64,000 bases of DNA from Gemmatimonadaceae bacterium (GTDB lineage: Bacteria > Gemmatimonadota > Gemmatimonadetes > Gemmatimonadales > Gemmatimonadaceae): the NCBI GenBank assembly GCA_014377535.1, contig JACMPK010000025.1:22633-86632 (forward strand), written 5' to 3'. Made by a program: the position numbers and the translations under genes. Below the pieces are notes generated by a model. That model was not told the DNA's origin and ran no database searches. It saw nothing but the letters and a program-made list of their open reading frames with translations. Below, piece after piece: positions 21,128 through 57,548 of the stretch. Every line of letters begins with the position of its first letter. Position 1 is the stretch's first letter.

Positions 21128-22915
21128 TCAGCGCAGACCTGCGCGACGCCGGAGCAGCCATTCCGCTGCGAGCAGCAGCACCGTGGCAAGGTAGAGCCAC
21201 CCCAGCGACCGCGCACCGCGGCGCACGGCACGCGCCTCGCCGTTGAGCAGCACACTGCGCATGTCGGCGACAATCGGCAGCCACTCGCGCGACGCATTGA
21301 CAGGCAGCACGATCGCGCTGCCGTCAATCGTACCACGCCAGACGCCGTCGCTCAGCGCCGGTGACGTTATTTCGGCGGCATCGCCGAAGCGCAGTGAGTC
21401 GCGACGCGTGGCGCGATCGCCATCACGCACGAGTGACACGACGGCCCGTGGCTGCGCGCCGCGACGCCAGCGCACGGGCGCACCGGCGCGCTGCACCATG
21501 AGCGCCGGCACGGGAACGGCCGCGCGACCACGAGCGGCCATCAACCAGTCGGTCGCGCCACCGACGAGTGCCTGGAACGCCATCTCGCTGACGCCCCCAC
21601 GCGCACGCCACCGGCTGTATCCCGAGGCGGACACCTCGACGCGGCGAACGTCGCCCTCGTGCGCAGTCATGATGGGCGTACCGCCTGCGGCACTCATGCC
21701 TGGCGCGGCGCTCAGCGCGGTGATACCACCCCGTGCGGGTGCGGCGGCGAGCAGCGGCGGCAACGATTCAACCACGATACCTGCCAGCGACGGCTGCAGC
21801 GGCGATGTCGGAGCGACGCGAACCAGCAACTCGGGCGCATCGCTGCCCGGTGGCGCGAGGAGCAGCAGCGCACGCGTGCCAAGCGACGACGGCGACCCCA
21901 TCGCAGTGGTGTCGCCATGCAGCACGGCAAGCGTTGCCCCGCGTACTGCGGCACGTACCGCGCTCTCGTCCACCGGCGTGAAGTTGCCATCGCGGAGCCA
22001 GCGGCCGGGTGCGATCCGATAGTACGCATCGGTCGGCAGCGCGACATTGGCGCGTAGTGCGGTCGCCACGTCGCGCACATCGGCATCCGGTGCGGTCGAG
22101 ACGATCACGACGCGTTGCCGCGCGCCGCGCCGGAAGGCAACGGCCACGGTGTCATTCCGTGACTGCACGTCGGAGCCCGCGGGTAGCGCGGCGCGCAGCA
22201 CCGCAATGGAGTCACCAGGCGGGATCACCACCCGGCTCTCGACCACGGCCTCGCCCGCCGACTGCAGCGCGGGGACGGTGACCGCGGCGACGGAGTTCGC
22301 GTCGATCAGCCAGCGCAACGTGGTGGCTGCGGCCGCGCCATCGGTCATGACGCGCGCTCGCAGCGTCACGGTGTCACCGACGCGTGCCTCGGTTGGTGCA
22401 CTGACGTCGGCCACGGCGCGATCACCGACGGCACGAACGGGGATCACGATCACGCGCGAGCCGGCAACGGCCTGCTGCAACGCGTCCGGATCATCCAGAC
22501 CTCCGTCCGTGATGACGATCACGCGCTGCCCTTGCGCCGCGGCACGCTGGATGAGCGGCCCGACGGCCGACGCGGCATCACGGGGCCATTCAAAGTCGGA
22601 TCCGGTGCGCACCGAGTCGCCGAACAGCTGCACGGCGACCGATCCTGCAACCCGGCGGGCGGTATCCACGGCGGCGCGCCAGGCACTCGTGTCGCCGTTT
22701 CGTATCCAGCTGGCCGACGCATCAAGCGCCACCAGCGGCGTTGGCGGCGTCGCGATGCCAATGGGGAGGTCGAGCAGCAGCGCGGCGACGAGCGCGACAG
22801 CCGCGACACGAAGCAGTGCCAGCGGAATCCGCGGGCGCGTCAGCGACGGATAGGCAACCCACGCCACGACGACGCCGGCACCGAGCGCGAGCCCCCAGCC
22901 AGACACATCGTTCAC
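21128..22915 (-). CDS. Membrane-anchored VWA-like hypothetical protein
   Basis: Two N-terminal TM helices, VWA-like core (VALDASASW...VIVITDGGLDDPDAL), C-terminal TM helix. Confidence 0.65.
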   Translation of the reverse strand: MNDVSGWGLALGAGVVVAWVAYPSLTRPRIPLALLRVAAVALVAALLLDLPIGIATPPTPLVALDASASWIRNGDTSAWRAAVDTARRVAGSVAVQLFGDSVRTGSDFEWPRDAASAVGPLIQRAAAQGQRVIVITDGGLDDPDALQQAVAGSRVIVIPVRAVGDRAVADVSAPTEARVGDTVTLRARVMTDGAAAATTLRWLIDANSVAAVTVPALQSAGEAVVESRVVIPPGDSIAVLRAALPAGSDVQSRNDTVAVAFRRGARQRVVIVSTAPDADVRDVATALRANVALPTDAYYRIAPGRWLRDGNFTPVDESAVRAAVRGATLAVLHGDTTAMGSPSSLGTRALLLLAPPGSDAPELLVRVAPTSPLQPSLAGIVVESLPPLLAAAPARGGITALSAAPGMSAAGGTPIMTAHEGDVRRVEVSASGYSRWRARGGVSEMAFQALVGGATDWLMAARGRAAVPVPALMVQRAGAPVRWRRGAQPRAVVSLVRDGDRATRRDSLRFGDAAEITSPALSDGVWRGTIDGSAIVLPVNASREWLPIVADMRSVLLNGEARAVRRGARSLGWLYLATVLLLAAEWLLRRRAGLR

Positions 22916-43125: not shown

Positions 43126-44109
43126 TCAAGCATCGGGCGATGGCGGCGCGCCGCTGGGGCCGATGGATTGCAGCAGCATGTCAAGCGCCTGGCTCCGGGC
43201 CGCGCGCTCGGTGATCGCCTCGCGCTCTCGCATTGCGGCCAGTCGTTCGCGCTGCTCGCGTCGCCTGCGCCGATACAGAGGCCCGAGCAGCAGCAGGCAC
43301 GCGGCGGCGACAATGGCCGAATCGGCGGCAAGCGAGAGAAATGCAAACTGCCACCGCGCCTGCTGCTGCCAGCGGCGTTCGAACTGCTCGGACGTGAGTG
43401 CGTACGCGCGGCGGATCGCGAGATCGAACGACTGCCGCTCCTTCCACGCGCTGAGCAGTGGGGCCAATCCACGTTCCCGATCGAGGTTCGCCAGATCCGT
43501 GACTGCGCGCAGCGCGAGCGCGTACCCTGCGCGCGCGTCAGTGGCACGAGAGTTCGACAGCATCGTGTCGAGCGCGGCCAGCGTCGGCATGGCACGGAAC
43601 ACAAGTGCGGCATTGGTCTGCAGGAAACCCTCGGTGCGCTCCTCACCGGCGGCGTAGCTCGCGTACCCCTCGTCGAACCAGCGCGGCGGGAGGTCACCGA
43701 GATAGTCGTGCAGCGCGATGTGCGCGAGCTCGTGCCGCAGCACCTGCAGCGGGTCACCCGCGTTGCCCGGCGCGCGGTGCCCCTGCACCACCACGCGATG
43801 CTGATCCACGAACGCAAGTGCGGCGCTCCAGGGAAATGCGCTTTGGCCGGCCCACTCGCGAAAGGTCACGGCATCAGGCGCGACCATGATCAGGATGCGT
43901 GTGCTGGACCGCGGCAGCCAGGGAAACGTGTCGCGCGTGACTGCGGCGTCCAGCATCGAGGCGGCAAGCACGGCGTCACCGGCGTAGTGAATGACCGTGT
44001 AGCGACCACGATCGATACGACGCGCGCCGATGGGCGCGGCAGCGACCCGCGGTGCCCAGGCGACCCATGCTGCTGCCAGCAGCAGCAGCGCGCACAACGC
44101 ACGTCTCAA
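43126..44109 (-). CDS. Peptidase MA-like metallohydrolase, membrane-associated
   Basis: VLRHELAHIALHDYLGDLPPRWFDEGYASYAAGE (HExxH...E), C-terminal TM; likely TTG start at 44109 overlapping upstream stop. Confidence 0.8.
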   Translation of the reverse strand: MRRALCALLLLAAAWVAWAPRVAAAPIGARRIDRGRYTVIHYAGDAVLAASMLDAAVTRDTFPWLPRSSTRILIMVAPDAVTFREWAGQSAFPWSAALAFVDQHRVVVQGHRAPGNAGDPLQVLRHELAHIALHDYLGDLPPRWFDEGYASYAAGEERTEGFLQTNAALVFRAMPTLAALDTMLSNSRATDARAGYALALRAVTDLANLDRERGLAPLLSAWKERQSFDLAIRRAYALTSEQFERRWQQQARWQFAFLSLAADSAIVAAACLLLLGPLYRRRRREQRERLAAMREREAITERAARSQALDMLLQSIGPSGAPPSPDA

Positions 44110-45140
44110 TTGACGCGTGCGGGTGCCCCCCCATCGGCGATCTGGTCCAGCATCTCGCGGCAGCGCGCGCTCCATGGGTTGAACTTGTTCAGCTCCGCAC
44201 CCTTGCGCCACGTGGCGATCGCGTCGTCGGTGCGCTCGGCATACCAGAAGACTCGTCCGAGTTCAAACCGCGCCTCGATGAGGTTCGGCCCGAGCTCGAT
44301 GGCACGCAGCAGCTCCCCGATGGCTTCGGCGTATTCCTCCTGCGCATATCGGACGAGGCCCAGGTAGTAGTGCGCGTAGAGCGTCGCCTTGCGATCGGTG
44401 TCGAGCGCGATGGCGCGCAACAGGTGCTCCACGGATCGTTCGAACTGCTGCCGACGGAACAACACATAGCCGACGTTGATCAGCGCGAGTGCGTGATCGG
44501 GCACACGGTCCAGCACCTGCTGAAACAATGACATGGCGCCGTCAAGCTTGCCCTGTGCTCGCTGTGCCCATCCAAGCAGCGTCTCGGCATGCGGGTCGCC
44601 CGGATTCAGCTGCAGCGCCTTGTCGAGCGCCTCCTCGGCCCCGGCAAAGTCACCAGTGGCGATGCGGCTCCAGCCACGCTCGACGAAGGTGGAGGCATTG
44701 AGCTCGTCAATGACGCGCGGCTGCCCTGACACGGAGAGCGCGGTCGCCGTATGCGCCGCTGCTTTGAGTGCCGCTTCGGCATCCGTCTGTGACGGCGCGG
44801 TGACGGCGAATTCAGATGCACCAGTGTGCGCCGGTGTGCCGGAGCTGACAGCATCACGATCGTCGGTGTCCGTGACCGCGCGAGCTCCCGGCGGCGTGAA
44901 GCTGCTGCCCGACCCGGTGAACCGCTCCTTCCAGCCCGCGACCAACAACCGTACATCCCGCTGCAGCAGCTCGAGCTGCTGAACATGCTGCTCGACGATC
45001 CGATGCGCCACGAAGATGCGCTGCTTGAGCATTGCACCCCGCTCGATCGCGTCGTCGCTACCCTCAAGCTCGCGCGCGAGTTCGTCCACCTGCACACGCA
45101 GGTGGCTCAGCGCATCGTCTGCCGAGAGGGGAGTGGTCAT
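44106..45140 (-). CDS. TPR-repeat protein with N-terminal coiled coil
   Basis: TPR repeats (GDFAGAEEALDKALQLNPGDPHAETLLGWAQRAQGKLDGAMSLFQQVLDRVPDHALALINVGYVLFRRQQFERSVEHLLRAI). Confidence 0.8.
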   Translation of the reverse strand: MTTPLSADDALSHLRVQVDELARELEGSDDAIERGAMLKQRIFVAHRIVEQHVQQLELLQRDVRLLVAGWKERFTGSGSSFTPPGARAVTDTDDRDAVSSGTPAHTGASEFAVTAPSQTDAEAALKAAAHTATALSVSGQPRVIDELNASTFVERGWSRIATGDFAGAEEALDKALQLNPGDPHAETLLGWAQRAQGKLDGAMSLFQQVLDRVPDHALALINVGYVLFRRQQFERSVEHLLRAIALDTDRKATLYAHYYLGLVRYAQEEYAEAIGELLRAIELGPNLIEARFELGRVFWYAERTDDAIATWRKGAELNKFNPWSARCREMLDQIADGGAPARVN

Positions 45141-45234
45141 GACGATTGCTCTGGAGTGCACCTGCCGCGTCCCGCCCGCGGCGTGGTGCCGCGCCTGGCC
45201 GCGCTGCATAACAGTATCGGGCGCTCCCTGACGT

Positions 45235-45753
45235 TCACAGGCACCGGTCGCCAGCCGCGATGGTGTGCACCGTCACGCGCTGGAGACGCGGGTCGACCAG
45301 CACCGACCGTCCCACATGCCCTCCAACGTCTGCGGCACGCACCGGCACACCCGCGTCGTGCAGGGCCACGCGTGCGCTGCGCAGGTTGTCACCCGCGATA
45401 TCGCGCACGAATGCCGCGTCGACACCCGGAAACATCGATGCGCCCCCGACCAGCACGGCGGCGTACGGCGCTTCGGCCCCGGCGGCGCGCAAGGCGTTCA
45501 ACAGGGCGGGCACCGCCGTCTCGACGTACTTCGCGTCGTCACCGCCCCGGTCGTCGGCACATGCGAGCATGCAGTGCGCGAGCGCCGCCAGCTGCTGCGC
45601 CGGTGCGAAGATGATGATTGCGACGCAAGAGCCGAGGCCCACCGTCCGCAGCAGCTCCGATGCAGACGCGATCGCGCTTCGACCCATCGGCACCGTGATC
45701 GTGCGCACCATCTCGCGCGCGTCGCATGAGTCAGGCGCGAACAAGGCGGTCAT
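45235..45753 (-). CDS. cheD: Chemoreceptor glutamine deamidase CheD
   Basis: LRTVGLGSCVAIIIFAPAQQLAALAHCMLA...KYVETAVPALLNALRAAGA...VGGASMF. Confidence 0.88.
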   Translation of the reverse strand: MTALFAPDSCDAREMVRTITVPMGRSAIASASELLRTVGLGSCVAIIIFAPAQQLAALAHCMLACADDRGGDDAKYVETAVPALLNALRAAGAEAPYAAVLVGGASMFPGVDAAFVRDIAGDNLRSARVALHDAGVPVRAADVGGHVGRSVLVDPRLQRVTVHTIAAGDRCL

Positions 45754-47375
45754 GACGCGCGGCGGATGGCGTCGAGGCTGACCTGCGCCTGCCGGTTGCC
45801 CGGATCGAGTTCCAGCACCCGATGCCAGCAGCGTTCCGACTCGGCCACTTCGCCACGCTGATACCGGAGTTCACCGAGTTTCAGGTAGACATCGGGGCCG
45901 AGCGCAGGCTCCAGTCGCACCGCGCGCTGGTACGCCTCGAGCGCGTCGCCGAAGCGCGCGACCCGGTAAGCGAGATCGCCGATCGTTTTCTGAAACGGCG
46001 CGATGTTCGCTGCGTGCAGCATCCCACGTTCGACGGCGGCCGCGGCGGCGACGAGTGCGCCGCGCCCGAGCATCAACGCGGCGTAGTTCGCGTGCAGCAC
46101 GCCGACCGAGGGGTGTGTGCGAATACCCTCCTCGAGGAGCGCCTGCGCCTGATCGGCATCATCGCGCGCAGCGGACACCAGCGATGCGTAATGGAACCAG
46201 ACGGCCGGCGGCGCATCGCCCTCGAAACGTGTACGCGCCAAGGCTAGCAGCTGGTCGGCACGCGCGTAATCGCCCAGCCGGAATGCGTGCAGCGCGCGCG
46301 ACAGCTCGATGTGCGGCGACACGGGTTGTCCCATGCGCGCGGCGCGGTCGAGCATGCGCGCCGACTCCAGCTCGCGACCAATCCCTTCGTACGCCAGCGC
46401 GAGGTGATGCAGCATCGTCGACGTCGCATGATCCAGCGCCGCCAGCGGCTCGAGCCAGCCGACGGCGTCATCCCATGCCCCGCCCTTGAGCGACAGCAGG
46501 CCAAGCTGGTGCCGGGCGATGGGATCGTCGGGTGATGTTTCGACCACGCGGCGAAACTCGCGTGCGGAGTCCTCGATCATGCCCGCCTTGGCCAGCGCGA
46601 GACCGAGCTTGAGTGCCTTCTCGGCGGTGCTCGCACCGTATTCCGTTTCCTCGGCTCGCACCTGCTCCGCGCCGTGCACCGGCACGAGCAGTCCCTGTGC
46701 CGCGAGTTCGTACAGCGCCTTGCCGACCATGAACTCGCCCAGACCCGATCGCTCGATCACGCCGCGGATCGAGCGTCGCCCGTCGAGCAGGTGCGCGACT
46801 TCGGCCAGCTCGCCGGTGAGGGGCGTGGAGACACCGGCGCGCGCCGCATCCATCTCGAAGACGACATCGAAGCTGGGAAAGCGACGTTCCACCAGCGCCC
46901 ACTCGTCCACCCGGCGCGCGCCCTCCATGAGCAGCGACTCCGGATTGATTGCGACTGCGAGGCCGCGGCCATCCGGATGCACGTCAGGCTCGAAGGTCCA
47001 GATACCCTGCGTCCACGTGAAGAGCGAGAACACCGCCTCCTCCACGAGCACACGCAGCTCCTTGTCGACGACTTCGCGTGGCACATGGCCCGCGTCGACG
47101 AGCAGCTCGCCGACACGTCGGTTGGGCTGGCTCACCTGCGTGCGCAACACCTCGTCGAGCTGCTCCTTGGTCACGAAGCCGCGCTTCACCAACGAGTCGC
47201 CGAGGCGGTCACGCCGGTTGACGATCGCACCAAACGCGATCTTCCCGTGCTGGAAGAAGACGGAGCCGAACTTGGTACCGTCCACGATGCTCAGGCAACC
47301 GGTCTTCTGGCCGAGCGCGAGCAGCTGGAGCACGTCGGGAATACTCGCCTCCTTGAGGCTTCCACGGATCGCCAT
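45750..47375 (-). CDS. DUF4388 (PATAN)-domain protein with C-terminal TPRs
   Basis: MAIRGSLKEASIPDVLQLLALGQKTGCLSIVDGTKFGSVFFQHGKIAFGAIVNRRDRLGDSLVKRGFVTKEQL; TPR tail; start 47375. Confidence 0.85.
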   Translation of the reverse strand: MAIRGSLKEASIPDVLQLLALGQKTGCLSIVDGTKFGSVFFQHGKIAFGAIVNRRDRLGDSLVKRGFVTKEQLDEVLRTQVSQPNRRVGELLVDAGHVPREVVDKELRVLVEEAVFSLFTWTQGIWTFEPDVHPDGRGLAVAINPESLLMEGARRVDEWALVERRFPSFDVVFEMDAARAGVSTPLTGELAEVAHLLDGRRSIRGVIERSGLGEFMVGKALYELAAQGLLVPVHGAEQVRAEETEYGASTAEKALKLGLALAKAGMIEDSAREFRRVVETSPDDPIARHQLGLLSLKGGAWDDAVGWLEPLAALDHATSTMLHHLALAYEGIGRELESARMLDRAARMGQPVSPHIELSRALHAFRLGDYARADQLLALARTRFEGDAPPAVWFHYASLVSAARDDADQAQALLEEGIRTHPSVGVLHANYAALMLGRGALVAAAAAVERGMLHAANIAPFQKTIGDLAYRVARFGDALEAYQRAVRLEPALGPDVYLKLGELRYQRGEVAESERCWHRVLELDPGNRQAQVSLDAIRRAS

Positions 47376-49285
47376 CAGTCGCAGTCCTCCATGAGTCGCG
47401 CGCCAGGATCGGGCCAGCGATGCACAAAGTTTTCGGGGTCGCCCATCTGATGCTTGAGGCCACGACGCGGCGTTGCGGCACCGTCCAGCTCCGCGGTGAC
47501 GAACGCCGATGTCACGGGTGCGCCGGCGAGTGCTGCAGCTGCCTGCAGCCGCCTGACCGCCGCAAGCACCTCCCCGATGGACCGCGCGGGACGCTCCGCG
47601 ATCTGCACGACGACGTTGTCGGTGACCGACGTGTGCGTAGCCGCGAAGCACCGGCCGATCAGTATCGCGCGCTGTGATGCATCGGGGCTGCCAAGCTCCA
47701 CGATCAATCCCTGCGCAAACCGTGTACGCAAGCGATCCTCGAGCGTTGCCAGCTGGTTCGGCGGGATCGACGACGTCAGCACCACCTGGCGTCCGGCGCT
47801 CTGCAGCGCGTTGAACAGGTGGAACAGCTCGTCCTGCGTGCGTTCCTTGCCGGCGACCGCCTCGATGTCGTCGAGCAGCAGTGCACCCGCGTTGCGATAG
47901 CGTGCGCGCCACTTCTCCACCGCCCCTTCCCGCAGCGCGGTGATGAGTTGCTCCGCGAACGCGGCGGCGGTGACGCAGGCGACGGTCTGCACACCGTTGG
48001 CGATCATCGCGTTGCCGATGGCGTGCAGCAGGTGCGTGCGCCCGCTGCCTGCCGGTCCGGTGATGACGAGCGGAACGAACTGCGTGCCGGGTGACTCGAC
48101 GACCGCGCGGGCGGCGCGCAACGCGAGCTGATTTGCGAGCCCTTCATGCAGCGTGTCGAACAGGAGACTCGGCTCCGGACGTGGCGGCGGCTCGATGGAC
48201 GAGACGGCCTGCTGCACCAGCGCGTGCGCCTCCTTGACGCGCTCCGGGTCGCGAAAGATGGCGTTCCCGGACAGCCCGGTGTCAGCGGCCGAGCCTTGCC
48301 GCCCGAGGTCGCGCAGGTATTCCACCGCCGCGCCAAAGGTGGCCAGCAATCCCTCGACATCCGGGGCCTCGCGCAGCTGCAGCGCGCGCTCGAGCACCGC
48401 GACGCTGATACCCTCCGCGCGCCAGCGCGCCGCGGCATCGGCCAGCCGCACCCGCCACTCCTCGACCTGTTCGACTACCGCGGTCGCGACTTCCTGCATG
48501 AACGTGTCGTAGTCGGCGGGACGCCGGCTGCGCGCATCGTCGGCAAAGTGCGACTGTGTCGCGAGCGGCGTTGCGCGTCCACTGACGAGACGTCGCACAT
48601 CGGCGACGCCGATCGCCGCGTCGCTCATGCCCTGATGTGCAAGCAGCCGATTCAGCCCACCCTGCAGCTCGCGGATGTTCGAGAAATCGACGCGCGCAAG
48701 CTCCTCGAGCACGCCATCGCGGAAGCGCAGCACCCGTTCGCCCTGCAGCTTCTGCAAAATCGCCACGCGTGTCTCGTAGTCCGGGATGCCGACATCGACG
48801 ATCAGGCCCCCGGTGAGCCGCGTGAGCAGGCGGTCGGCGACGTCGGCAATCTCGTCCGGCGGACGATCGCTCGTCATCACGATCTGCGTGCCGCGGCCCT
48901 GCAGCACGTTGAACAGCCGGAGCAGCTCGCCCTGAACCTCGGCGCGTCCCGTAAGAAACTGCACATCGTCCAACAGCAGCACGCCGGTGGACTCGTACCG
49001 CTTCTTGAAGGTGTCGAGGCGACCGCCTTGCAGCGCCTGATGAAACTCCTCCATGTAGTCGTCCAGCGCCACGTACTCGACGGCCAGCGACGGCTGCTTG
49101 TCCCGTGCCGAGTGCCCGACTGCGTGCATCAGGTGCGTCTTGCCGAGGCCGGATGCGCCGTACACGAACAGCGGGTTGTACAGGACGCCCGGCGCATCGG
49201 CAACCGCCTTCGCAGCGGCGACAGCGAGGCGATTGGACGAGCCGGTGACGAAGGTATCGAAGCGGAGGCGGTGGTCGAGTTTCAT
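47375..49285 (-). CDS. Tandem DnaA-like AAA+ protein (two AAA+ modules)
   Basis: Module 1 GASGLGKTHLMHAVG / VLLLDDVQFLTGRAEVQGELLRLFNVLQ / VMTSDRPPDEI / RLLTRLTGGLIVDV; module 2 GPAGSGRTHLLHAIGNAM / ALLLDDIEAVAGKERTQDELFHLFNALQ / VLTSSIPPNQL / RLRTRFAQGLIVEL; no recognisable C-terminal DnaA domain IV signature. Confidence 0.88.
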   Translation of the reverse strand: MKLDHRLRFDTFVTGSSNRLAVAAAKAVADAPGVLYNPLFVYGASGLGKTHLMHAVGHSARDKQPSLAVEYVALDDYMEEFHQALQGGRLDTFKKRYESTGVLLLDDVQFLTGRAEVQGELLRLFNVLQGRGTQIVMTSDRPPDEIADVADRLLTRLTGGLIVDVGIPDYETRVAILQKLQGERVLRFRDGVLEELARVDFSNIRELQGGLNRLLAHQGMSDAAIGVADVRRLVSGRATPLATQSHFADDARSRRPADYDTFMQEVATAVVEQVEEWRVRLADAAARWRAEGISVAVLERALQLREAPDVEGLLATFGAAVEYLRDLGRQGSAADTGLSGNAIFRDPERVKEAHALVQQAVSSIEPPPRPEPSLLFDTLHEGLANQLALRAARAVVESPGTQFVPLVITGPAGSGRTHLLHAIGNAMIANGVQTVACVTAAAFAEQLITALREGAVEKWRARYRNAGALLLDDIEAVAGKERTQDELFHLFNALQSAGRQVVLTSSIPPNQLATLEDRLRTRFAQGLIVELGSPDASQRAILIGRCFAATHTSVTDNVVVQIAERPARSIGEVLAAVRRLQAAAALAGAPVTSAFVTAELDGAATPRRGLKHQMGDPENFVHRWPDPGARLMEDCD

Positions 49286-49394: not shown

Positions 49395-49703
49395 TCAGCC
49401 GAGAGTTTCCGCGAGCCGCCGCATGGTGAGCCGCAACAGACCGAGATTGGCCCACGGTTCCGCCACGGTCACCAGCAGCAGGTCACCCTGCGGCATCGCA
49501 CAGACACGCCCGCGTTCGCCCTCGAGGTGCAGGAAGCCCGGCGTCGTGCCGTCCGCCGCGATGGCATCGGCATCGGTTCCGACGTGCACGTTGCCATCCA
49601 CCACGATGCCGTCGACACGCGACACGATGAGGGCAGCGTTGACGCCTGCGGTGTGCATCAGTTCATCGACCACGCGATTGTACTGCGCCATGAACTCGTT
49701 CAT
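49395..49703 (-). CDS. Roadblock/LC7-like protein
   Basis: 102 aa: MAQYNRVVDELMHTAGVNAALIVSRVDGIVVDGNVHVGTDADAIAA...LLLVTVAEPWANLGLLRLTMRRLAETL. Confidence 0.75.
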   Translation of the reverse strand: MNEFMAQYNRVVDELMHTAGVNAALIVSRVDGIVVDGNVHVGTDADAIAADGTTPGFLHLEGERGRVCAMPQGDLLLVTVAEPWANLGLLRLTMRRLAETLG

Positions 49704-50440
49704 CAGAATCCGTCGGCTGCACTGCGCGCGGTCGCAACGCGGAGCAGCGCGCGAACGCGACCGATCGGCACATGTCGCGACACGCTGAGCACCGTCAGCG
49801 ATCCGGCCGGTGCGGGTGCGAGTGCGAGGGAGTCACCGGCGGTCTCCAGCACGAGGGCGTGCCAGGCACCGAGGTTGAGATGCTTCATGGCGCGGGCCGC
49901 GTCGTCACCGACACCGGCGACTGCAGCGGCCATGGCTTCCAGCACGGCCATGTCGTCGCTCGGCTGCGGGCTGGCAAGCAGCAGGCCGTCCGCATCGGCG
50001 ACGAGTGACCGCACCACTTCCGCGCGAGCCGGCGGCGGCGCAATGGTGGCCGAGAAGCTCGGGACCGCGGCATGATTGGCCGCCGGGTACGACGCGCCGG
50101 TGGACCGAGGCGTCGACGATCTGTCGGGATGCCCAGCAGTACGAAGCGAGGCCGCGGCACCGTTCGATGCGCCGGTGCCCGGCGCCGAAGTGTCGATGCG
50201 CGCGCGCTCCCAGAAGCCCGACGCGGCGTTCAGGTCACCGCGCGCCTCGGCGATGCGCGCCAGCACGCCGAGTGCAGGTCCGTGCGTGGGATGCCGCTCC
50301 AGGCCACGCGCCGCAAGACGCTCGGCGGTCTCGAGATCACCCTGCTGGCGCAGCGTCTCTGCGAGATCCGCGAACGCGAGGCTCTGTGGATCTGTGGCCA
50401 GCTCGTTGCTCCACCGTCGGATATCGTCAGCTGCCGGCAT
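49703..50440 (-). CDS. TPR-Roadblock/LC7-like fusion protein
   Basis: N-terminal LADLAETLRQQGDLETAERLAARGLERHPTHGPALGVLARIAEARGDL; low-complexity linker; C-terminal VVRSLVADADGLLLASPQPSDDMAVLEAMAAAVAGVGDDAARAMKHLNLGAWHALVLETAGDSLALAP. Confidence 0.65.
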   Translation of the reverse strand: MPAADDIRRWSNELATDPQSLAFADLAETLRQQGDLETAERLAARGLERHPTHGPALGVLARIAEARGDLNAASGFWERARIDTSAPGTGASNGAAASLRTAGHPDRSSTPRSTGASYPAANHAAVPSFSATIAPPPARAEVVRSLVADADGLLLASPQPSDDMAVLEAMAAAVAGVGDDAARAMKHLNLGAWHALVLETAGDSLALAPAPAGSLTVLSVSRHVPIGRVRALLRVATARSAADGF

Positions 50441-51569
50441 GTGCGGAGATCAGTTCCTGGAGTTGCGCCGCAGCATCGCGGGCGGTGCGCACCCGGGCTG
50501 CATCGGGCGCTGTCGGGGCAGCCGCAAGATAGTGCTCCCACGCACTCAATGCGGCCGCGTATTCGCCGCGGCGTGCGGCGACATAACCGAACTGTTCCTG
50601 CGCTTCGGGGAGGAGCGGATCGAGCTGCACGGCGACGCGCACTTCCTCCGCCCAGTCGTCGGTGCGCCCCAGCCCGAGCAGCGCTCGACCGGCCAGCACG
50701 TGCGCTGTCGCGTTGCGAGGCGCATGGCCGATCGCAGTGCGTGCGGCCGCCAGCGCAGCCTCGAACCGCGCGTCCACCAGCGCGAGCCGTGCCAGCGCGG
50801 TGAGCTGTGCAACGCCCGCCGCCGCGTCGCCATCGCCCACCAGCGGGGTGCGCGCATCAGTGGTCAGCGCGCCCAGTGCAGTCCAGCGGGACACCCACCG
50901 CGCCGTCTCGAAGACGCGCATCCCCGCCGCCGATGCGACCTGGCGCACGGTGCGGCAGCCGTCCACGCACGACAGCACGCGCCAGCCGTCGGCAGGAACC
51001 GCGAGTTCGCCCTCGGCCTCGCAGTCGCAGACCACCGGTACGGCACCCAGTGATCCGATGCGAAGCTCGATCGCCGGCCACTCGTCGCGGCGACGTGCCG
51101 CATCGAGAAACAGCTCCTCGCCGGACAGGTGCAGCGTTGTGGTCGGCTCGAGCGCGCTCAGCGCCTCGGTGTCGGTGAATGAGAACGTGCCCTCGGCAAA
51201 CGTCGTGAGCTCGAAACAGAGATCGTCGATGAGGCGGCGCGCCACCGTGTCTCGCGTCCGACTGCTCAGCGCCCCCGTCTCCACCAGACCGTCGACGAGC
51301 GAGCGCGGAGGCACCTGGTTGCTGGCCCAGGTGGCGGCGGCCACCCGCTCGTCCGCATCCACGAGTCCTGCTTGCGAGAGGGCGCTGAGCAGCGGCTCTG
51401 GCTCGTCGTCCCAGCGACCCGCGCTGATGGAGCCGTCCGTGAACCGAAGGATCGCGCCGCGCGCGCCAGCGCCGCCGGAAACGCGTAGCGCACCCGTGCG
51501 CTTGCCGCCCGCCAGCAGCTGGATCACCTCGGCGAGGCCGAGGTCGCGGAGGGCGCCTTCCAGAGCCAT
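50427..51569 (-). CDS. DUF4388 (PATAN)-domain protein with C-terminal TPRs
   Basis: MALEGALRDLGLAEVIQLLAGGKRTGALRVSGGAGARGAILRFTDGSISAGRW; TPR tail. Confidence 0.8.
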   Translation of the reverse strand: MALEGALRDLGLAEVIQLLAGGKRTGALRVSGGAGARGAILRFTDGSISAGRWDDEPEPLLSALSQAGLVDADERVAAATWASNQVPPRSLVDGLVETGALSSRTRDTVARRLIDDLCFELTTFAEGTFSFTDTEALSALEPTTTLHLSGEELFLDAARRRDEWPAIELRIGSLGAVPVVCDCEAEGELAVPADGWRVLSCVDGCRTVRQVASAAGMRVFETARWVSRWTALGALTTDARTPLVGDGDAAAGVAQLTALARLALVDARFEAALAAARTAIGHAPRNATAHVLAGRALLGLGRTDDWAEEVRVAVQLDPLLPEAQEQFGYVAARRGEYAAALSAWEHYLAAAPTAPDAARVRTARDAAAQLQELISAHAGS

Positions 51570-54082
51570 CAGCCGCGCACCATGGTCACGGAACCGAGCG
51601 TCACCGGCGTGCGTGGCACGGCGCCGCCGTCATGCTCGGCGGGCGCGAGCCGCGCGCGCGTGGACCAGCGGTCGTCGATCGCATTGCCCGCTGCCACGCG
51701 CCAGTGCTGCATCGCCTCGACCTCGCGTCCGGCGCGCAGCGCCACGAACCCGTGCAAGGTGCGCACGCCGGCATGATCGGGCGCGACCGCGGAGCCGCGC
51801 GCGATCGCGGACATCGCCTGCTCCTCGCGACCCAGTGCCAGCAACGCTTCGGCGAGTGCCACGAGCAGGTCGGCATCGCGCGGATTCGCACGCAGCGGCC
51901 GTACAAGCGCCTGCATGGCATCGCTGGGCCGGCCCATGTCCACCCGCAGCTCGGCAAGTGCGCGCGCGGCGTCGTGGAAGGTGGGCACGCTTTCCAGCGC
52001 GCGAAGCAGTTCCTGCTCCGCTTCCTGCACGCGGCCATCGTCGCGCAGCAACGCGGCAAGGCCGACACGCACCTGCGCGAGATCGGGATCGCCGGCCAGC
52101 GCTGTGCGCAACGCAGACTCCGCGCTGCGCCCACTGGCGTTGCCCGACACATGCATGATCGAGGCGGTGACCGAGGCCGTGGCGAGCATGCCGACCCGCT
52201 GCGAGCCAAGCGGCGACTGATGATCTGTGCCGATCGCGGGCGAGCTCGCAGCCGTCACGCGCAGGAGCGGAATCACCGGGGTGCGCCGCGCAACGCGATG
52301 GTTCACGCCCGTGTGGGACACCGGCGTGCCGCCACGTCGCAGTGCGACCCATGCACCAAGCGGGGTGCGGTTGCGGTCACCCGACTCCACGGTCGGCGCG
52401 GCCTCGCGCATGGGATGCACCGGGACCCGATCGGTCAGCACGACGCTGTGCTCCGACGTGACCATCGGACGTTGCGCCCCACTGAGCATCATCAGCGCCA
52501 TGGCGTCACCACTGACGGCATCGTTCGCGGCCACTTCCAGCAGCACATCGGGCAGTTCGGGCTCGAGCACCATCAAGAAGCGGAATGGTGCAAACTCGTC
52601 CTCGAACGTCATGGCCCGCTTCATGGCCCGCACGCCGTCCTGATAGCGTCCAAGCTGCGAGAGCGTGAACGCGAGGTGATAGGCCGCATCAGCGCATTCG
52701 GGCGCGAGGGTCACCGCGCGCTCAAAGGCGCTACAGGCCTCATGCAGTCGACGCAGCTCGCTGAATGCCACGCCGACGCCGATCCAGGCACGCATGTTCT
52801 GCGGGTCCGCCTCGGTGACACGGCGGAATCCTTCCAGGCATTCGGCGTGGCGTCCGAGCTGTCGCATGACCCACGCCGCGTTGAGCCTCGCCGCCAGCTC
52901 CACCTGGGGCGTTCCCCGCACGCGTTGAAAAGCGCTGATGGCCTCGACGGGATGGTTTTCCAGCGCCTCGACGACACCGCTCACGAGCAGCATGCTGCCG
53001 TGCGCACCATCGCAGGCGAGTGCCTCTCCCAGCGCCAGGCGTGCCTCGCCAAGGTCCCCGTTCCGCACGAGCGCTGCGGCACGTGCGACGAGCGGCGCGA
53101 TGACGCCGGGCTGTGCGACCGCCGCATCGGCGTACGCGGCGGCGGCTTGCGACCATTCGCCGCGCATCAGTCGCGTCTCGGCGACCGCCGCGTGCACATG
53201 GCAGGCCGGTTCACCGCGCGTCAGCGCCGTGTCGAACTCGGCAAGCGCCTGGTCGAAGTAGCCGGTGTTCCGATATGCAATGCCCAGGTTCAGGTGCGCG
53301 CGCGCCTCGCTGCCGGTGTTCGTGCGCGTGACCGGCTTCAGCGTCCGCGCATCGAGTGTGAGATTCATGTCGACGCGCGCGAGGTTCGGATCCAGCTGCA
53401 GTGCGCGCTGTGCTGCCGCCTGCGCTGCGTCAAGTTCTCCCATGTCACCGAGCACGAACGCGAGCAGATGCTGGGGCCAGGCCGCCGACTCGTCGATCTC
53501 GAGCGCGCGCTCGAGAGCCCGTCGCGCCGCCTCGGTCTTGCCGCGACGATACAGAATCTCGCCAGCCAATGCATGCATCGCCACGTTCTCGGGCTCGAGG
53601 CCGAGTGCACGATCGAGCCATGCGGAGGCGCGATCCGGATAGCCGAGGGCCTGTTCCACGAGCGCCATCTCACGCAGCGCGACGAGATCGTCCGGCGTGC
53701 GATCGAGCAGCTCGCCGAGCACCGTCGCGGCATCGGCTGGCCGACCAAGTCGCGCGTGCCACTTGCCCAGTTCCAGTGCGGTGTCGATGTCGTGCGGCGA
53801 CTGGCGCAGCCGATCGGTGAGCTGCTGCACGCGCTCGACGTCGACCGAAGTGCGTGCCGCCATCTGCTGCAGGTTCTGCGACGCGAGCGACATGCGTGCA
53901 TCGACATCCAGCGCGCGCTCGAAGCAGGCCGCGGCCTCGTGCGAGAGGCCACGCCGGGCCAGCATCACGCCGCAATTGTTCTGCGCGCTGGCGTTGGTGA
54001 CGGGCACGCGCTTCGCGATGGCGCGCAGCCGGTCGGCTTCGCGGATCGACAGCTCGGGCATCGCCTGCTGCATCACCGGCAT
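51569..54082 (-). CDS. Large TPR-repeat protein
   Basis: Many TPRs (e.g. ENVAMHALAGEILYRRGKTEAARRALERALEIDES); start MPVMQQAMPELSIREADRL estimated at 54082. Confidence 0.8.
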   Translation of the reverse strand: MPVMQQAMPELSIREADRLRAIAKRVPVTNASAQNNCGVMLARRGLSHEAAACFERALDVDARMSLASQNLQQMAARTSVDVERVQQLTDRLRQSPHDIDTALELGKWHARLGRPADAATVLGELLDRTPDDLVALREMALVEQALGYPDRASAWLDRALGLEPENVAMHALAGEILYRRGKTEAARRALERALEIDESAAWPQHLLAFVLGDMGELDAAQAAAQRALQLDPNLARVDMNLTLDARTLKPVTRTNTGSEARAHLNLGIAYRNTGYFDQALAEFDTALTRGEPACHVHAAVAETRLMRGEWSQAAAAYADAAVAQPGVIAPLVARAAALVRNGDLGEARLALGEALACDGAHGSMLLVSGVVEALENHPVEAISAFQRVRGTPQVELAARLNAAWVMRQLGRHAECLEGFRRVTEADPQNMRAWIGVGVAFSELRRLHEACSAFERAVTLAPECADAAYHLAFTLSQLGRYQDGVRAMKRAMTFEDEFAPFRFLMVLEPELPDVLLEVAANDAVSGDAMALMMLSGAQRPMVTSEHSVVLTDRVPVHPMREAAPTVESGDRNRTPLGAWVALRRGGTPVSHTGVNHRVARRTPVIPLLRVTAASSPAIGTDHQSPLGSQRVGMLATASVTASIMHVSGNASGRSAESALRTALAGDPDLAQVRVGLAALLRDDGRVQEAEQELLRALESVPTFHDAARALAELRVDMGRPSDAMQALVRPLRANPRDADLLVALAEALLALGREEQAMSAIARGSAVAPDHAGVRTLHGFVALRAGREVEAMQHWRVAAGNAIDDRWSTRARLAPAEHDGGAVPRTPVTLGSVTMVRG

Positions 54083-54101
54083 GGACGCTGGACTCCGACG
54101 C

Positions 54102-54734
54102 CTAGGCGAGGTTGATCGCCTGCAGGATCCGCTGCAGCGACGCCGAATCCGGCAGCAGCAGGAAGTATCCGCGCAACGCCTCGCCATCGTCACGCATCTG
54201 GAACTGGCTCTCGACGCAGAACACCACGTCGTGCCCGTCGCCGAACTGCAGGAAGGCGGAGCTCAGCACCGCGCTCGCCATGTCGACGGCCAGCAGTGGC
54301 GGCGACGGCAGCAACATGAGGTGCATGAAGTCGGCCAGTGCATTGAGGTAGGCGCCGCTCAGAATGTTGCCACACTCCTTGAGCGCGCTCTCCTCGAGTA
54401 ACGCGATCGTCGGTGACGATCCGCGCGGCCGCTGCAGCATCAACTCCGACAGGCGGCAGGCCGTGTGCTCCGGGAACACCAGGATCGAGCGTCCCGTCAG
54501 GTCGCCCAGCATCTGCAGCAGGATGACGGCGACGGCGTCTTCCGGGTTATCGACGACATGCCCCGGCACCTCGTCGAGCCGCGTGATCGAGATCGTCGGC
54601 ACGTTGATCATGATCGCCTGCCCCGTCATGGTGGACAGGGCAGTCGCCGCATGGCCGGCGCCGATGTTCGCCACTTCACGCAGCGCGTCGAGCTGCTCCG
54701 GCTTCAGGCTGCGGACATCGCGAGTTGCCAGCAT
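54102..54734 (-). CDS. cheC: CheC-family chemotaxis phosphatase
   Basis: LREVANIGAGHAATALSTMTG and ESALKECGNILSGAYLNALADF (both CheC active-site repeats). Confidence 0.88.
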   Translation of the reverse strand: MLATRDVRSLKPEQLDALREVANIGAGHAATALSTMTGQAIMINVPTISITRLDEVPGHVVDNPEDAVAVILLQMLGDLTGRSILVFPEHTACRLSELMLQRPRGSSPTIALLEESALKECGNILSGAYLNALADFMHLMLLPSPPLLAVDMASAVLSSAFLQFGDGHDVVFCVESQFQMRDDGEALRGYFLLLPDSASLQRILQAINLA

Positions 54735-56614
54735 CAGGGAAGGGTGTTGATGTCCAGAATGAGCGACGGCGTGCCGTCGGAAAGGATGGTGCCACCGCTG
54801 AACGTTCGGGCCGCACCGCGCACACGCTGCAGCGGCTTCACCACGATCTCCTGCTGCGAGGTGCAGGCGTCGACATACAACGCCACGCGTCCCGTCGCAC
54901 CCTCGAGGACGACCAGATGCCCGTAAACGTCATCCGCGGCCGGCAGGCCGAGATGTGAGCGCAGGCTCACGACGCGCATGACCTCCCCATCGATCTCCAC
55001 ATCCACTGATCCGCTGGCCGGTGCATGCAGTTGCAACGCCTCGGCACGATGCGTGGCATGCACGGTCGACAGCGGAATGGAATATGTCTCGCCAGCCACG
55101 CGGACGAGCAGCGCGCGCAGCATCGCCACGCTCAACGGCAGTCGCAGCGTGATGGCGGTGCCTGTGCCCGACGCCGTTGCCAGGTCGAGCCGACCACCCA
55201 GTGACTGCACCCGCGTGAGCACCGCATCGACACCCACGCCGCGGCCCGAGAGTGCGGTCACGCTGCGAGCCGTGCTGAGTCCCGGCCGCGCAAGCAGCTG
55301 CAGCAGCCCCTGATCATCCTGTGCCAAGGCGTCGGCGTCAGGAACACCGTGGGCCGCGGCGCGCGCGGCGACGTGCGCGCGATCCACGCCGCGCCCGTCA
55401 TCGGCCACCGTCACGGCGACCATCGACCCATCCCGTGCGGCGCGCACGACCAGGCGGCCGTGTGCCGGCTTGCCCGCGGCGACACGCGCGTCGCTGGTCT
55501 CGAGCCCATGGTCAATGGCGTTGCGCAGCAGGTGCATGATCGGGTCACTGAGCTCGTCGAGCAGCGAGCGATCGACCTCCAGCTCGCGTCCCTCGAGCAC
55601 GAGGTCGATGTCCTTGCCCAGCGCCTGTGCCGTTTCGCGCACATGGCGCGGAAAGCGGTCAAAGACTTCCGACAGCGGCACCATGCGGCTCACCAGCACG
55701 GCATCACGCAGCTGCGTGATCAGTCGCGAGGCATCGTCGAGCGCCTGCCGCGCCGTCTCGTCCGACGTTGGCACGCTGCGCACGAGCCGATCACGCGCGA
55801 GCACCAGCTCACCGACCAGGTCGAGCAGGTCATCCAGGCGCTCGACCGGGATGCGCACCGTGCGCCCCTGCGCGTGCGGCATCACCTCGCGCCGCTCGAC
55901 TTCGCGCGCGACCTGACAGTCGGCCACCTCGCCCGCGAGAAGTGCCGTGCGCGCAATCAGGGCGGCGTCGAGCGCGGGCGCGTCGGCGGCATGCCCGAGC
56001 CAGAGCGTGAGCGCGCGATCCCACGTGTCTGCGGCTTGCGCGTCGGCATCGGGCGCAACCCGCAAGACCGGCGCGATGGCGGCCAGCCGCCGCTGCACCA
56101 GCAGTGCGCGCGCTGACGGCATCGCGGAATCCGCTGCGATGCGGACTTCCACCCGCCACGACGCGCCGTTTACGCTGGTGGCGCGCTGCACCGTGCGTGT
56201 GGCGTTGTCGCGCGTGCGCGCCCCGCGCGCCGGCGACGTGCGTGGCGTGAGCTCGGCAAGCCGAATCGTGAGTTCGGCGAGGGGCGCATCCGGCGCGATG
56301 CCCTGCTCCGCGGCATCCAGCGCGCTGCGTAACGCGTCGCCCACGTCGATGAGCAACAGGCATTCCTGCCGCTCCATCACGCCACGGTCGCGCACCATCT
56401 CCAGCAACGACTCCGCGGCATGCAGCGTGGCGGCGGCTTCGTCGAAGCCGACCGTGGCGCTCATGCCCTTCAGCGAATGCAGCGAGCGGAAGATCGATTC
56501 CTGCGCCTCGCGCGCGGCGGGTTCCGCCGCCAGCAGCTGGAGGTCGGCCTCCACGCGTGTGAGCAGGTCACGACCCTCCGCGAGGAAGAGCGCGAGCATG
56601 CGCTCGGTGTCCAC
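54734..56614 (-). CDS. cheA: Chemotaxis histidine kinase CheA
   Basis: HPt FRSLHSLKGMSATVGF; LLDLVGELVLARDRL; HLLRNAIDHGLE; GRGVGVDAVLTRVQSLGG; C-terminal CheW-like domain. Confidence 0.95.
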   Translation of the reverse strand: MDTERMLALFLAEGRDLLTRVEADLQLLAAEPAAREAQESIFRSLHSLKGMSATVGFDEAAATLHAAESLLEMVRDRGVMERQECLLLIDVGDALRSALDAAEQGIAPDAPLAELTIRLAELTPRTSPARGARTRDNATRTVQRATSVNGASWRVEVRIAADSAMPSARALLVQRRLAAIAPVLRVAPDADAQAADTWDRALTLWLGHAADAPALDAALIARTALLAGEVADCQVAREVERREVMPHAQGRTVRIPVERLDDLLDLVGELVLARDRLVRSVPTSDETARQALDDASRLITQLRDAVLVSRMVPLSEVFDRFPRHVRETAQALGKDIDLVLEGRELEVDRSLLDELSDPIMHLLRNAIDHGLETSDARVAAGKPAHGRLVVRAARDGSMVAVTVADDGRGVDRAHVAARAAAHGVPDADALAQDDQGLLQLLARPGLSTARSVTALSGRGVGVDAVLTRVQSLGGRLDLATASGTGTAITLRLPLSVAMLRALLVRVAGETYSIPLSTVHATHRAEALQLHAPASGSVDVEIDGEVMRVVSLRSHLGLPAADDVYGHLVVLEGATGRVALYVDACTSQQEIVVKPLQRVRGAARTFSGGTILSDGTPSLILDINTLP

Positions 56615-56655: not shown

Positions 56656-57018
56656 TCAGCCGAGGACGCGCTGCACTGCCTCGATCACGCGGTTCGGCTG
56701 GAACGGCTTCACCACGAAGTCGGACGCACCCGCCTGCAGCGCCTCGTTCACGAGCGCCTGCTGCCCCATGGCGCTGCACATCACGACCTTAGCGTTGGGA
56801 TCCCACGTCGTGATGGCCTTTACGGCGTCGATGCCGCCCATGTCGGGCATGACGATGTCCATCGTGACGAGATCCGGCTTCAGCGCCTTGTATTGCGCCA
56901 CGGCCTGCGCGCCCGTCTCGGCCTGACCGCAGACGGTGAAGCCGGCCTGCTGCAGGATGTCGCCGACGAGCGTGCGCATGAAGAGCGCGTCGTCACATAC
57001 CAGAATCCGATGACTCAT
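56656..57018 (-). CDS. cheY: CheY-like response regulator
   Basis: ILVCDDALFMRTLVGDIL, LVTMDIVMPDMGG, CSAMGQQ, DFVVKPF. Confidence 0.92.
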   Translation of the reverse strand: MSHRILVCDDALFMRTLVGDILQQAGFTVCGQAETGAQAVAQYKALKPDLVTMDIVMPDMGGIDAVKAITTWDPNAKVVMCSAMGQQALVNEALQAGASDFVVKPFQPNRVIEAVQRVLG

Positions 57019-57041: not shown

Positions 57042-57548
57042 TTACGTCGCGTGGACCTGATGGAGCAGGAAGTCGTCGGCCAACGCATCCACATCAAGCA
57101 GCGGCAGCGTGGTCCCGGCCACGCTCACCTCACACTGGAGGAACGCATGGCCGTCCGGTCGCGCACCCGAAGGTGCATCGGCAGCGCGAAGCACGGGCAG
57201 CGAATCGACCGCCAGTGCGCACCGTCGTCCTGCCAGGTCCAGCGTCACGATCCATCCCGAGGGATTCGCTGGCGCAACATCGAGCAGGCGTCCGAGATCG
57301 ACGAGCGGGACGAGCGTGCCCCGCACATTGACTACTCCGCAGACGAACGCCGGCGCTCCAGGCAACCGGATCGCCGGCGTTCGCGGCAGCACCTCCCGTG
57401 CCTTGTCGGCCGGCATCGCCACGGCGACGCTGCCACCGACCAGCACCATCATGCGCGCGCCAACGGTGCGGTCGGCGCGCACCGGCTCAGTCGTCGGACT
57501 GTTCGTCGGGTGCGGGTGGGGCGTCATCATGCTCAGGGAAGAAGCCAT
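57042..57548 (-). CDS. cheW: CheW-like coupling protein
   Basis: MPADKAREVLPRTPAIRLPGAPAFVCGVVNVRGTLVPLVDLGRLL; true start may be internal (e.g. near 57452). Confidence 0.85.
   Translation of the reverse strand: MASSLSMMTPHPHPTNSPTTEPVRADRTVGARMMVLVGGSVAVAMPADKAREVLPRTPAIRLPGAPAFVCGVVNVRGTLVPLVDLGRLLDVAPANPSGWIVTLDLAGRRCALAVDSLPVLRAADAPSGARPDGHAFLQCEVSVAGTTLPLLDVDALADDFLLHQVHAT

Follow-up and report, generated by a model that had tools for sequence, protein, structure and literature searches.

The presence, within a chemosensory operon of a Gemmatimonadaceae bacterium, of a gene whose product resembles the replication initiator DnaA twice over raises the question of what an ATPase of this type may be doing there. 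DnaA, Hda, DnaC and IstB are known as ATPases of DNA replication and transposition. The gene lies in a stretch of 64,000 nucleotides (the window; positions 22,633 to 86,632 of contig JACMPK010000025.1), and its product is here termed DnaAx.

A tandem DnaA-type protein without the replication domains

The dnaAx frame occupies 47375..49285 on the minus strand, exactly as delimited in the first-pass annotation, with its ATG at 49285 and its stop at 47375, and encodes 636 amino acids; an upstream GTG (49363) is superfluous as a start because the position of the ATG is shared by the orthologues. Pfam Bac_DnaA (PF00308) matches the protein over two stretches (332 bits and 7.7e-100 in all), and neither DnaA_N (domain I) nor Bac_DnaA_C (the helix-turn-helix of domain IV, which binds DnaA boxes) is detected in it by the Pfam scan. 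These absences are meaningful, since the true dnaA of the same genome (L001, located on a different contig, C55) yields all three matches (DnaA_N, Bac_DnaA and Bac_DnaA_C) when scanned in the same way. A whole-genome search returns three Bac_DnaA domains, namely those of dnaA and of modules 1 and 2 of DnaAx. The architecture of DnaAx is AAA+(1)-helical-AAA+(2)-tail, the replication domains having been lost.

A frameshift or mis-assembly joining two genes, named in the first-pass annotation as a possible objection, is ruled out by 109 distinct tandem orthologues, every one of them a single open frame. The contention of that annotation that two tandem DnaA-like modules share one frame and that domain IV is missing is borne out by these orthologues and the Pfam matches, and its inference that the protein is not the replication initiator is supported by the existence of a separate dnaA and by the clade of its own in which DnaAx is placed (see below). 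With regard to a mobile origin, no plasmid record reached 80% query coverage in the plasmid search, and the annotated matches listed were ordinary dnaA genes. The NCBIfam DnaA equivalog TIGR00362 (cut-off 343.9 bits) is exceeded by tandem proteins (467.6 and 511.4 bits) because the scores of the two modules are summed, so that annotation pipelines are likely to fall into the trap of naming the gene dnaA.

An AlphaFold2 model built from a 40-row alignment (mean pLDDT 88.7, pTM 0.53) is confident within its parts and does not give the relative placement of the modules. It orders the protein as AAA+ module 1 with its lid (to about residue 235), a disordered stretch (about 237-261), a helical domain (262-365), AAA+ module 2 with its lid (376-602), further disorder and a short C-terminal helix. 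Module 1 superimposes on domain III of Bacillus subtilis DnaA (8bv3) with a TM score of 0.94 by target and an rmsd of 1.5 over 232 columns, and with that domain (8bv3/8btg) DnaAx shares the fold, the ATPase motifs of module 1, the initiator-specific region, box VII and sensor 2. It differs from DnaA in having two modules, a unique helical domain and tail, and a location in a che/mgl operon, as well as in lacking domains I and IV. Two AAA+ modules per chain are likewise found in p97/Cdc48 and Rix7, but these belong to a different AAA+ branch and are matched by Foldseek through the general AAA+ layout only. The linker (residues 237-261; 48503..48577, minus strand) has a pLDDT below 50 over most of its length, and the helical domain (residues 262-365; 48191..48502, minus strand) gave no Pfam family, no significant PDB sequence match and no significant PDB fold match.

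Opposite patterns of conservation in the two modules

Module 1 (AAA+ with lid; 48581..49285, minus strand) carries the P-loop GASGLGKTH, Walker B LLLDDVQF, sensor 1 TSDRPP, box VII RLLTRLTGG and sensor 2 NIREL. Module 2 (47480..48160, minus strand), which had been described as having DnaA-like motifs, is indeed a DnaA-type module with Walker B LLLDDI and box VII (RLRTRFAQG) kept, but the Lys of its Walker A is replaced by Arg (GPAGSGRTH) and its sensor-2 Arg is gone in the genus (SIGEV). The initiator-specific region is present in both modules.

Searching 251 genomes of the phylum Gemmatimonadota with the full protein yielded 117 distinct family proteins, 109 of them tandem and 8 shorter. The P-loop Lys49 of module 1 is retained in 116/117, the remaining row being a gap, and its counterpart in module 2 has been lost in 20 of the 109 tandem proteins. 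Arg522, which corresponds to Arg285 of E. coli and forms the arginine finger of module 2, is retained in 105/109, including all 20 proteins devoid of the module-2 P-loop Lys, and the module-2 sensor-2 Arg is lost in more than a third. Conversely, the finger of module 1 is lost in 14/109 tandem proteins, 12 of which still present that of module 2. Ranked by conservation, the finger of module 2 stands 6-7 among 229 columns and its P-loop Lys 37, and this order is reversed in module 1, where the P-loop stands 6 among 225 columns and the finger 64. By parsimony on a FastTree tree, there were about three independent losses of the module-2 P-loop and about five of the module-1 finger, against one of the module-1 P-loop and two of the module-2 finger. 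The asymmetry is clear in the sequences, but is based on few independent events.

In DnaA, the ATP bound to one protomer is contacted by the arginine finger of its neighbour, and DnaA-bound ATP is hydrolysed when Hda acts on it (PMC5742627). The simplest reading of the conservation pattern would be that module 2 serves the site of module 1, which suggests that module 1 is the ATP-consuming half and module 2 the trigger of hydrolysis. Since all module-2 motifs are intact in 66/109 tandem proteins (about 60%), module 2 may itself be an active ATPase in those that keep them. Comparison with a congener gives dN/dS values of 0.05 for module 1, 0.10 for the helical domain, 0.17 for module 2 and 0.88 for the linker; as judged from these ratios, module 2 of the genus under study is still under purifying selection in spite of the Arg in place of the P-loop Lys and the lack of sensor 2.

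A conserved tail and an obligate PATAN neighbour

The protein ends in a tail with a helix (47378..47443, minus strand; here ENFVHRWPDPGARLMEDCD) for which the family consensus is EKVVWxWPxxxxRLIEE. The second Trp of this motif (that of WP) is present in 117/117 family proteins and the first Glu in 116/117, and the motif occupies the extreme C-terminal end of single, tandem and minimal forms alike. Hence the C-terminus, reported at first as devoid of a domain IV signature, does lack domain IV but is not featureless, for it harbors a diverged copy of this motif. An earlier pattern search with an 11-row alignment yielded no sufficiently conserved stretch, and a closer sequence set did. The resulting pattern, EK[VI]VWDW, was scanned over GTDB with one genome per species and returned 41 stretches, 25 of which encode relatives; all 25 fall in the Gemmatimonadota, two of them being assigned there through genomes of the same class and order as the window.

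Directly downstream of dnaAx, and overlapping it by one base (TGATG), lies a gene for a DUF4388/PATAN and TPR protein (45750..47375, minus strand; DUF4388 1.2e-34), and such a gene occupies this position in 90/90 loci. It contains an MshEN-like c-di-GMP motif (RLGDSLVKRGFVTKEQLDEVLRTQ...; 47067..47207, minus strand) that is matched by NCBIfam NF053729 at 40.1 bits (cut-off 38), and at 54.0 and 52.8 bits in two orthologues. The first Arg of the motif is invariant across 125 aligned proteins. The tandem motif sits inside the PATAN domain and is kept in orthologues. The obligate neighbour therefore carries the signatures of both DUF4388/PATAN and MshEN c-di-GMP domains, the motif being as described in PMC5013675, and differs from known proteins of either kind in its fusion to TPRs and its co-translation with a DnaA-type ATPase. 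On the strength of these matches, it may be a c-di-GMP sensor.

The minimal form of the family (L087:7221-8072) consists of one AAA+ module and the tail, followed by the DUF4388 gene, and is devoid of the helical domain, mglA and che genes. Because only the AAA+ module, the tail and the DUF4388 neighbour are kept there, the tail is a likely dock for the DUF4388/PATAN protein, as far as linkage can tell. Two further relatives (L077:6542-7765 and L076:3582-5105) present a single module and the tail, with module 2 replaced by low-complexity sequence; the former also seems to lack the lid.

A chemosensory and MglA context

The remainder of the operon, also on the minus strand, comprises upstream of dnaAx a roadblock/LC7 (MglB-like) protein (49395..49703; Robl_LC7 E 6e-4, below cut-off, with orthologues assigned by synteny), a TPR and roadblock/LC7 protein (49703..50440; Robl_LC7 2.7e-7), a second DUF4388/PATAN and TPR protein (50427..51569; 2.6e-18), a long TPR protein identified by profile match (51569..54193; its start codon is uncertain, as the frame overlaps cheC), CheC (54102..54734; 9.7e-21), CheA with profile matches for its Hpt, dimerisation, HATPase and CheW domains (54734..56614), CheY (56656..57018; an ORF with a receiver-domain sequence by eye) and CheW (57042..57548; an ORF), the last two in the same order in relatives. 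Downstream of the PATAN gene follow CheD (45235..45753; 3.6e-17) and a TPR protein identified by profile match (44106..45209). A Peptidase-MA-like membrane protein is encoded at 43126-44211, and one of the same kind closes the operon in relatives, even where the che genes are gone. Over 24325-62664, the che operon is flanked on one side by ileS-lspA-rluD and on the other by the dcw division cluster (assigned by eye, from mraW to ftsZ), all in one direction. The same arrangement is suggested for several relatives by weak PilM matches, probably to ftsA, some 25 kb away from the cluster.

In relatives with complete loci (L042, L047 and L185), the gene order is cheW-cheY-cheA-cheC-TPR-DUF4388-roadblock genes-mglA-dnaAx-DUF4388/TPR-cheR-cheD-cheB-cheW(s)-TPR-peptidase. 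The identity of the upstream GTPase as MglA is firm as judged by sequence (3.5e-75 against Myxococcus xanthus MglA and 3.5e-64 against the other solved MglA). It adjoins dnaAx in 94 of the 114 loci with enough upstream sequence to judge, and in 24 of the 25 genomes with DnaAx of an even phylum sample. The 20 loci without adjacent mglA belong to the genus of the window (2), to an ileS-lspA-rluD-dnaAx-DUF4388 type (17, nearly all of family f5, in which the che/mgl part is gone) and to the minimal form (1). The operon in the window lacks mglA, the third roadblock gene, cheR and cheB, and retains roadblock genes; an MglA paralogue is found on contig C37 of the same genome. CheA is present in 23/25 genomes with DnaAx. 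One genome (G010, locus L184) has the entire che/mglA operon but is a natural deletion of dnaAx: mglA is followed there by a shortened DUF4388 gene, with no dnaAx in between.

The MglA, the roadblock proteins and the chemosensory array of the relatives' operon are shared with the MglA-MglB module of Myxococcus and Thermus, from which the operon of the window differs in lacking mglA. A survey that describes PATAN genes in the vicinity of mglA/mglB (PMC4316618) makes no mention of a DnaA-type ATPase for MglA-MglB systems. The early suggestion, drawn from the neighbours, of a role in signalling or spatial organisation is thus supported by association, with MglA upstream in relatives and DUF4388/PATAN always downstream.

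As to the output of such a system, pilM (type IV pilus) is present in 25/25 genomes with DnaAx, which is compatible but not specific, given that PilM is near-universal in the phylum (39/41 genomes of the even sample). Flagellin is found in 10/25 genomes with DnaAx, and flagellar chemotaxis is an unlikely output since it is missing in the other 15.

Distribution and origin of the family

When the 41 genomes of the even sample were searched with an HMM of the helical domain, 25 had a single copy each, all among the 35 of the class (25/35) and none among the six outside it (0/6). Two of the genomes with a helical domain (G024 and G038) have no dnaA at E<=1e-60, probably owing to draft gaps. As far as seen, the family is confined to the Gemmatimonadota, because all 25 relatives recovered by the tail pattern fall there; more distant kin with another tail may exist elsewhere.

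In a tree of AAA+ domains from a quick LG+G4 search, in which E. coli Hda is a long branch used as outgroup only, module 2 forms one clade (SH-aLRT 98) and module 1 with the single-module forms another (99); the two are joined (86) and the Gemmatimonadota DnaA stands apart (99). Modules 1 and 2 are sister clades outside DnaA, their joint clade receiving moderate support. This topology fits a single event in which a DnaA-type ATPase was duplicated ahead of the diversification of the class, module 2 being lost afterwards in some lineages (L034-L037, L065 and L066).

Proposed function and alternative explanations

We see an even chance that DnaAx is a Gemmatimonadota-specific signalling ATPase of the DnaA branch working in an MglA/roadblock/chemosensory polarity system, most likely to steer type IV pili, and that module 2 activates module 1 from within the protein in the manner of Hda. 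Module 1 would bind and hydrolyse ATP. Its site would be completed, much as that of DnaA is by Hda, by the arginine finger of module 2 from the same or a neighbouring chain, and the trigger of hydrolysis would thus be part of DnaAx itself. Whether ATP or ADP is bound would govern head-to-tail assembly, the C-terminal tail would dock on the co-translated PATAN-TPR protein, itself possibly c-di-GMP-sensing, and MglA and the Che array would set or read the nucleotide state. Binding to DnaA boxes is not expected. The Hda-like part assigned to module 2 draws on the conservation of its finger and on the Hda model TIGR03420, whose best stretch lies on this module. The polarity reading is drawn from the frequent upstream mglA, the invariable PATAN gene downstream and the TGATG overlap; it is weakened by the operon that retains mglA without dnaAx, and by the f5 genomes and the genus of the window, which keep DnaAx without mglA at the locus.

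In a more ambitious and distinctly tentative scenario, the ancestor of the Gemmatimonadota class would have co-opted, on a single occasion, a replication-initiator-type ATPase for a polarity pathway of Ras-like GTPase and chemosensory proteins; the ATPase would have been duplicated and split into an ATP-binding half and a built-in GAP-like half, producing a two-nucleotide switch (MglA-GTP and DnaA-type ATP) tied to a c-di-GMP-binding PATAN partner.

Among the alternatives, it is conceivable, if rather unlikely, that both modules are active and that DnaAx is a polymerising or ring-forming ATPase scaffold, akin to an ATP-driven DnaA helix without DNA, that marks a cell pole, the finger asymmetry being lineage noise. 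Domain III of DnaA does self-assemble head-to-tail through ATP and Arg285 (PMC5742627), and the tandem proteins with every module-2 motif and the initiator-specific region in both modules are congruent with such a scaffold; the repeated loss of the module-2 P-loop and sensor 2, with the finger hardly affected, and the occurrence of single-module and minimal forms argue against it.

The likeness to Hda/HdaA (TIGR03420), a DnaA-type AAA+ without domain IV with which DnaAx would share the finger role proposed for module 2, raises the improbable alternative that DnaAx is the Hda substitute of the phylum, its module-2 finger acting on DnaA-ATP so that a chemosensory/polarity operon controls replication initiation. 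The genome has no separate Hda-like gene, its Bac_DnaA domains being confined to dnaA and the two modules, the module-2 finger is conserved and the operon adjoins the dcw division cluster. Nonetheless, the protein reaches 181.7 bits against TIGR03420 when the scores of both modules are added, still short of the cut-off of 194.8, and a clamp-binding motif like that at the N-terminus of E. coli Hda (QLSLPL) was not found in DnaAx, whose N-terminus is MKLDHRLRFDTF. Moreover, in DnaAx the Hda-like module is joined in one chain to its presumed target module, and the gene has no replication-gene linkage, being tied to PATAN at every locus and mostly to MglA, and it is missing in 10/35 sampled genomes of the class, all with dnaA.

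A DnaC/IstB-type loader acting on a hexameric motor (for instance PilB, the motor of the pilus), for which the PATAN protein would be the adaptor, seems still harder to credit: DnaA, DnaC and IstB do belong to one initiator/loader branch of AAA+ proteins and IstB_IS21 matches DnaAx (4.6e-20), but the sequence is much nearer to DnaA than to DnaC/IstB and no pilus motor gene is seen in the operon. Finally, a functionless, decaying dnaA paralogue, to which the erosion of module-2 motifs in several lineages and the absence of the protein from some genera might point, is considered untenable for the family in view of the low dN/dS of module 1, the helical domain and module 2 between congeners and of conservation and synteny across the class.

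Significance

A search of the open literature returned no report of DnaA with DUF4388 or with MglA and roadblock proteins, nor of a DnaA paralogue in the Gemmatimonadota. DnaAx appears to represent a new lineage-wide family of DnaA-type ATPases, apparently non-replicative, for which the mechanism is proposed with moderate confidence. If it is correct, the DnaA-type fold would be shown working as a signalling switch, without its DNA-binding domain, in an MglA/che operon, and the split between donor and acceptor modules would provide a simple system for arginine-finger action between DnaA-type modules.
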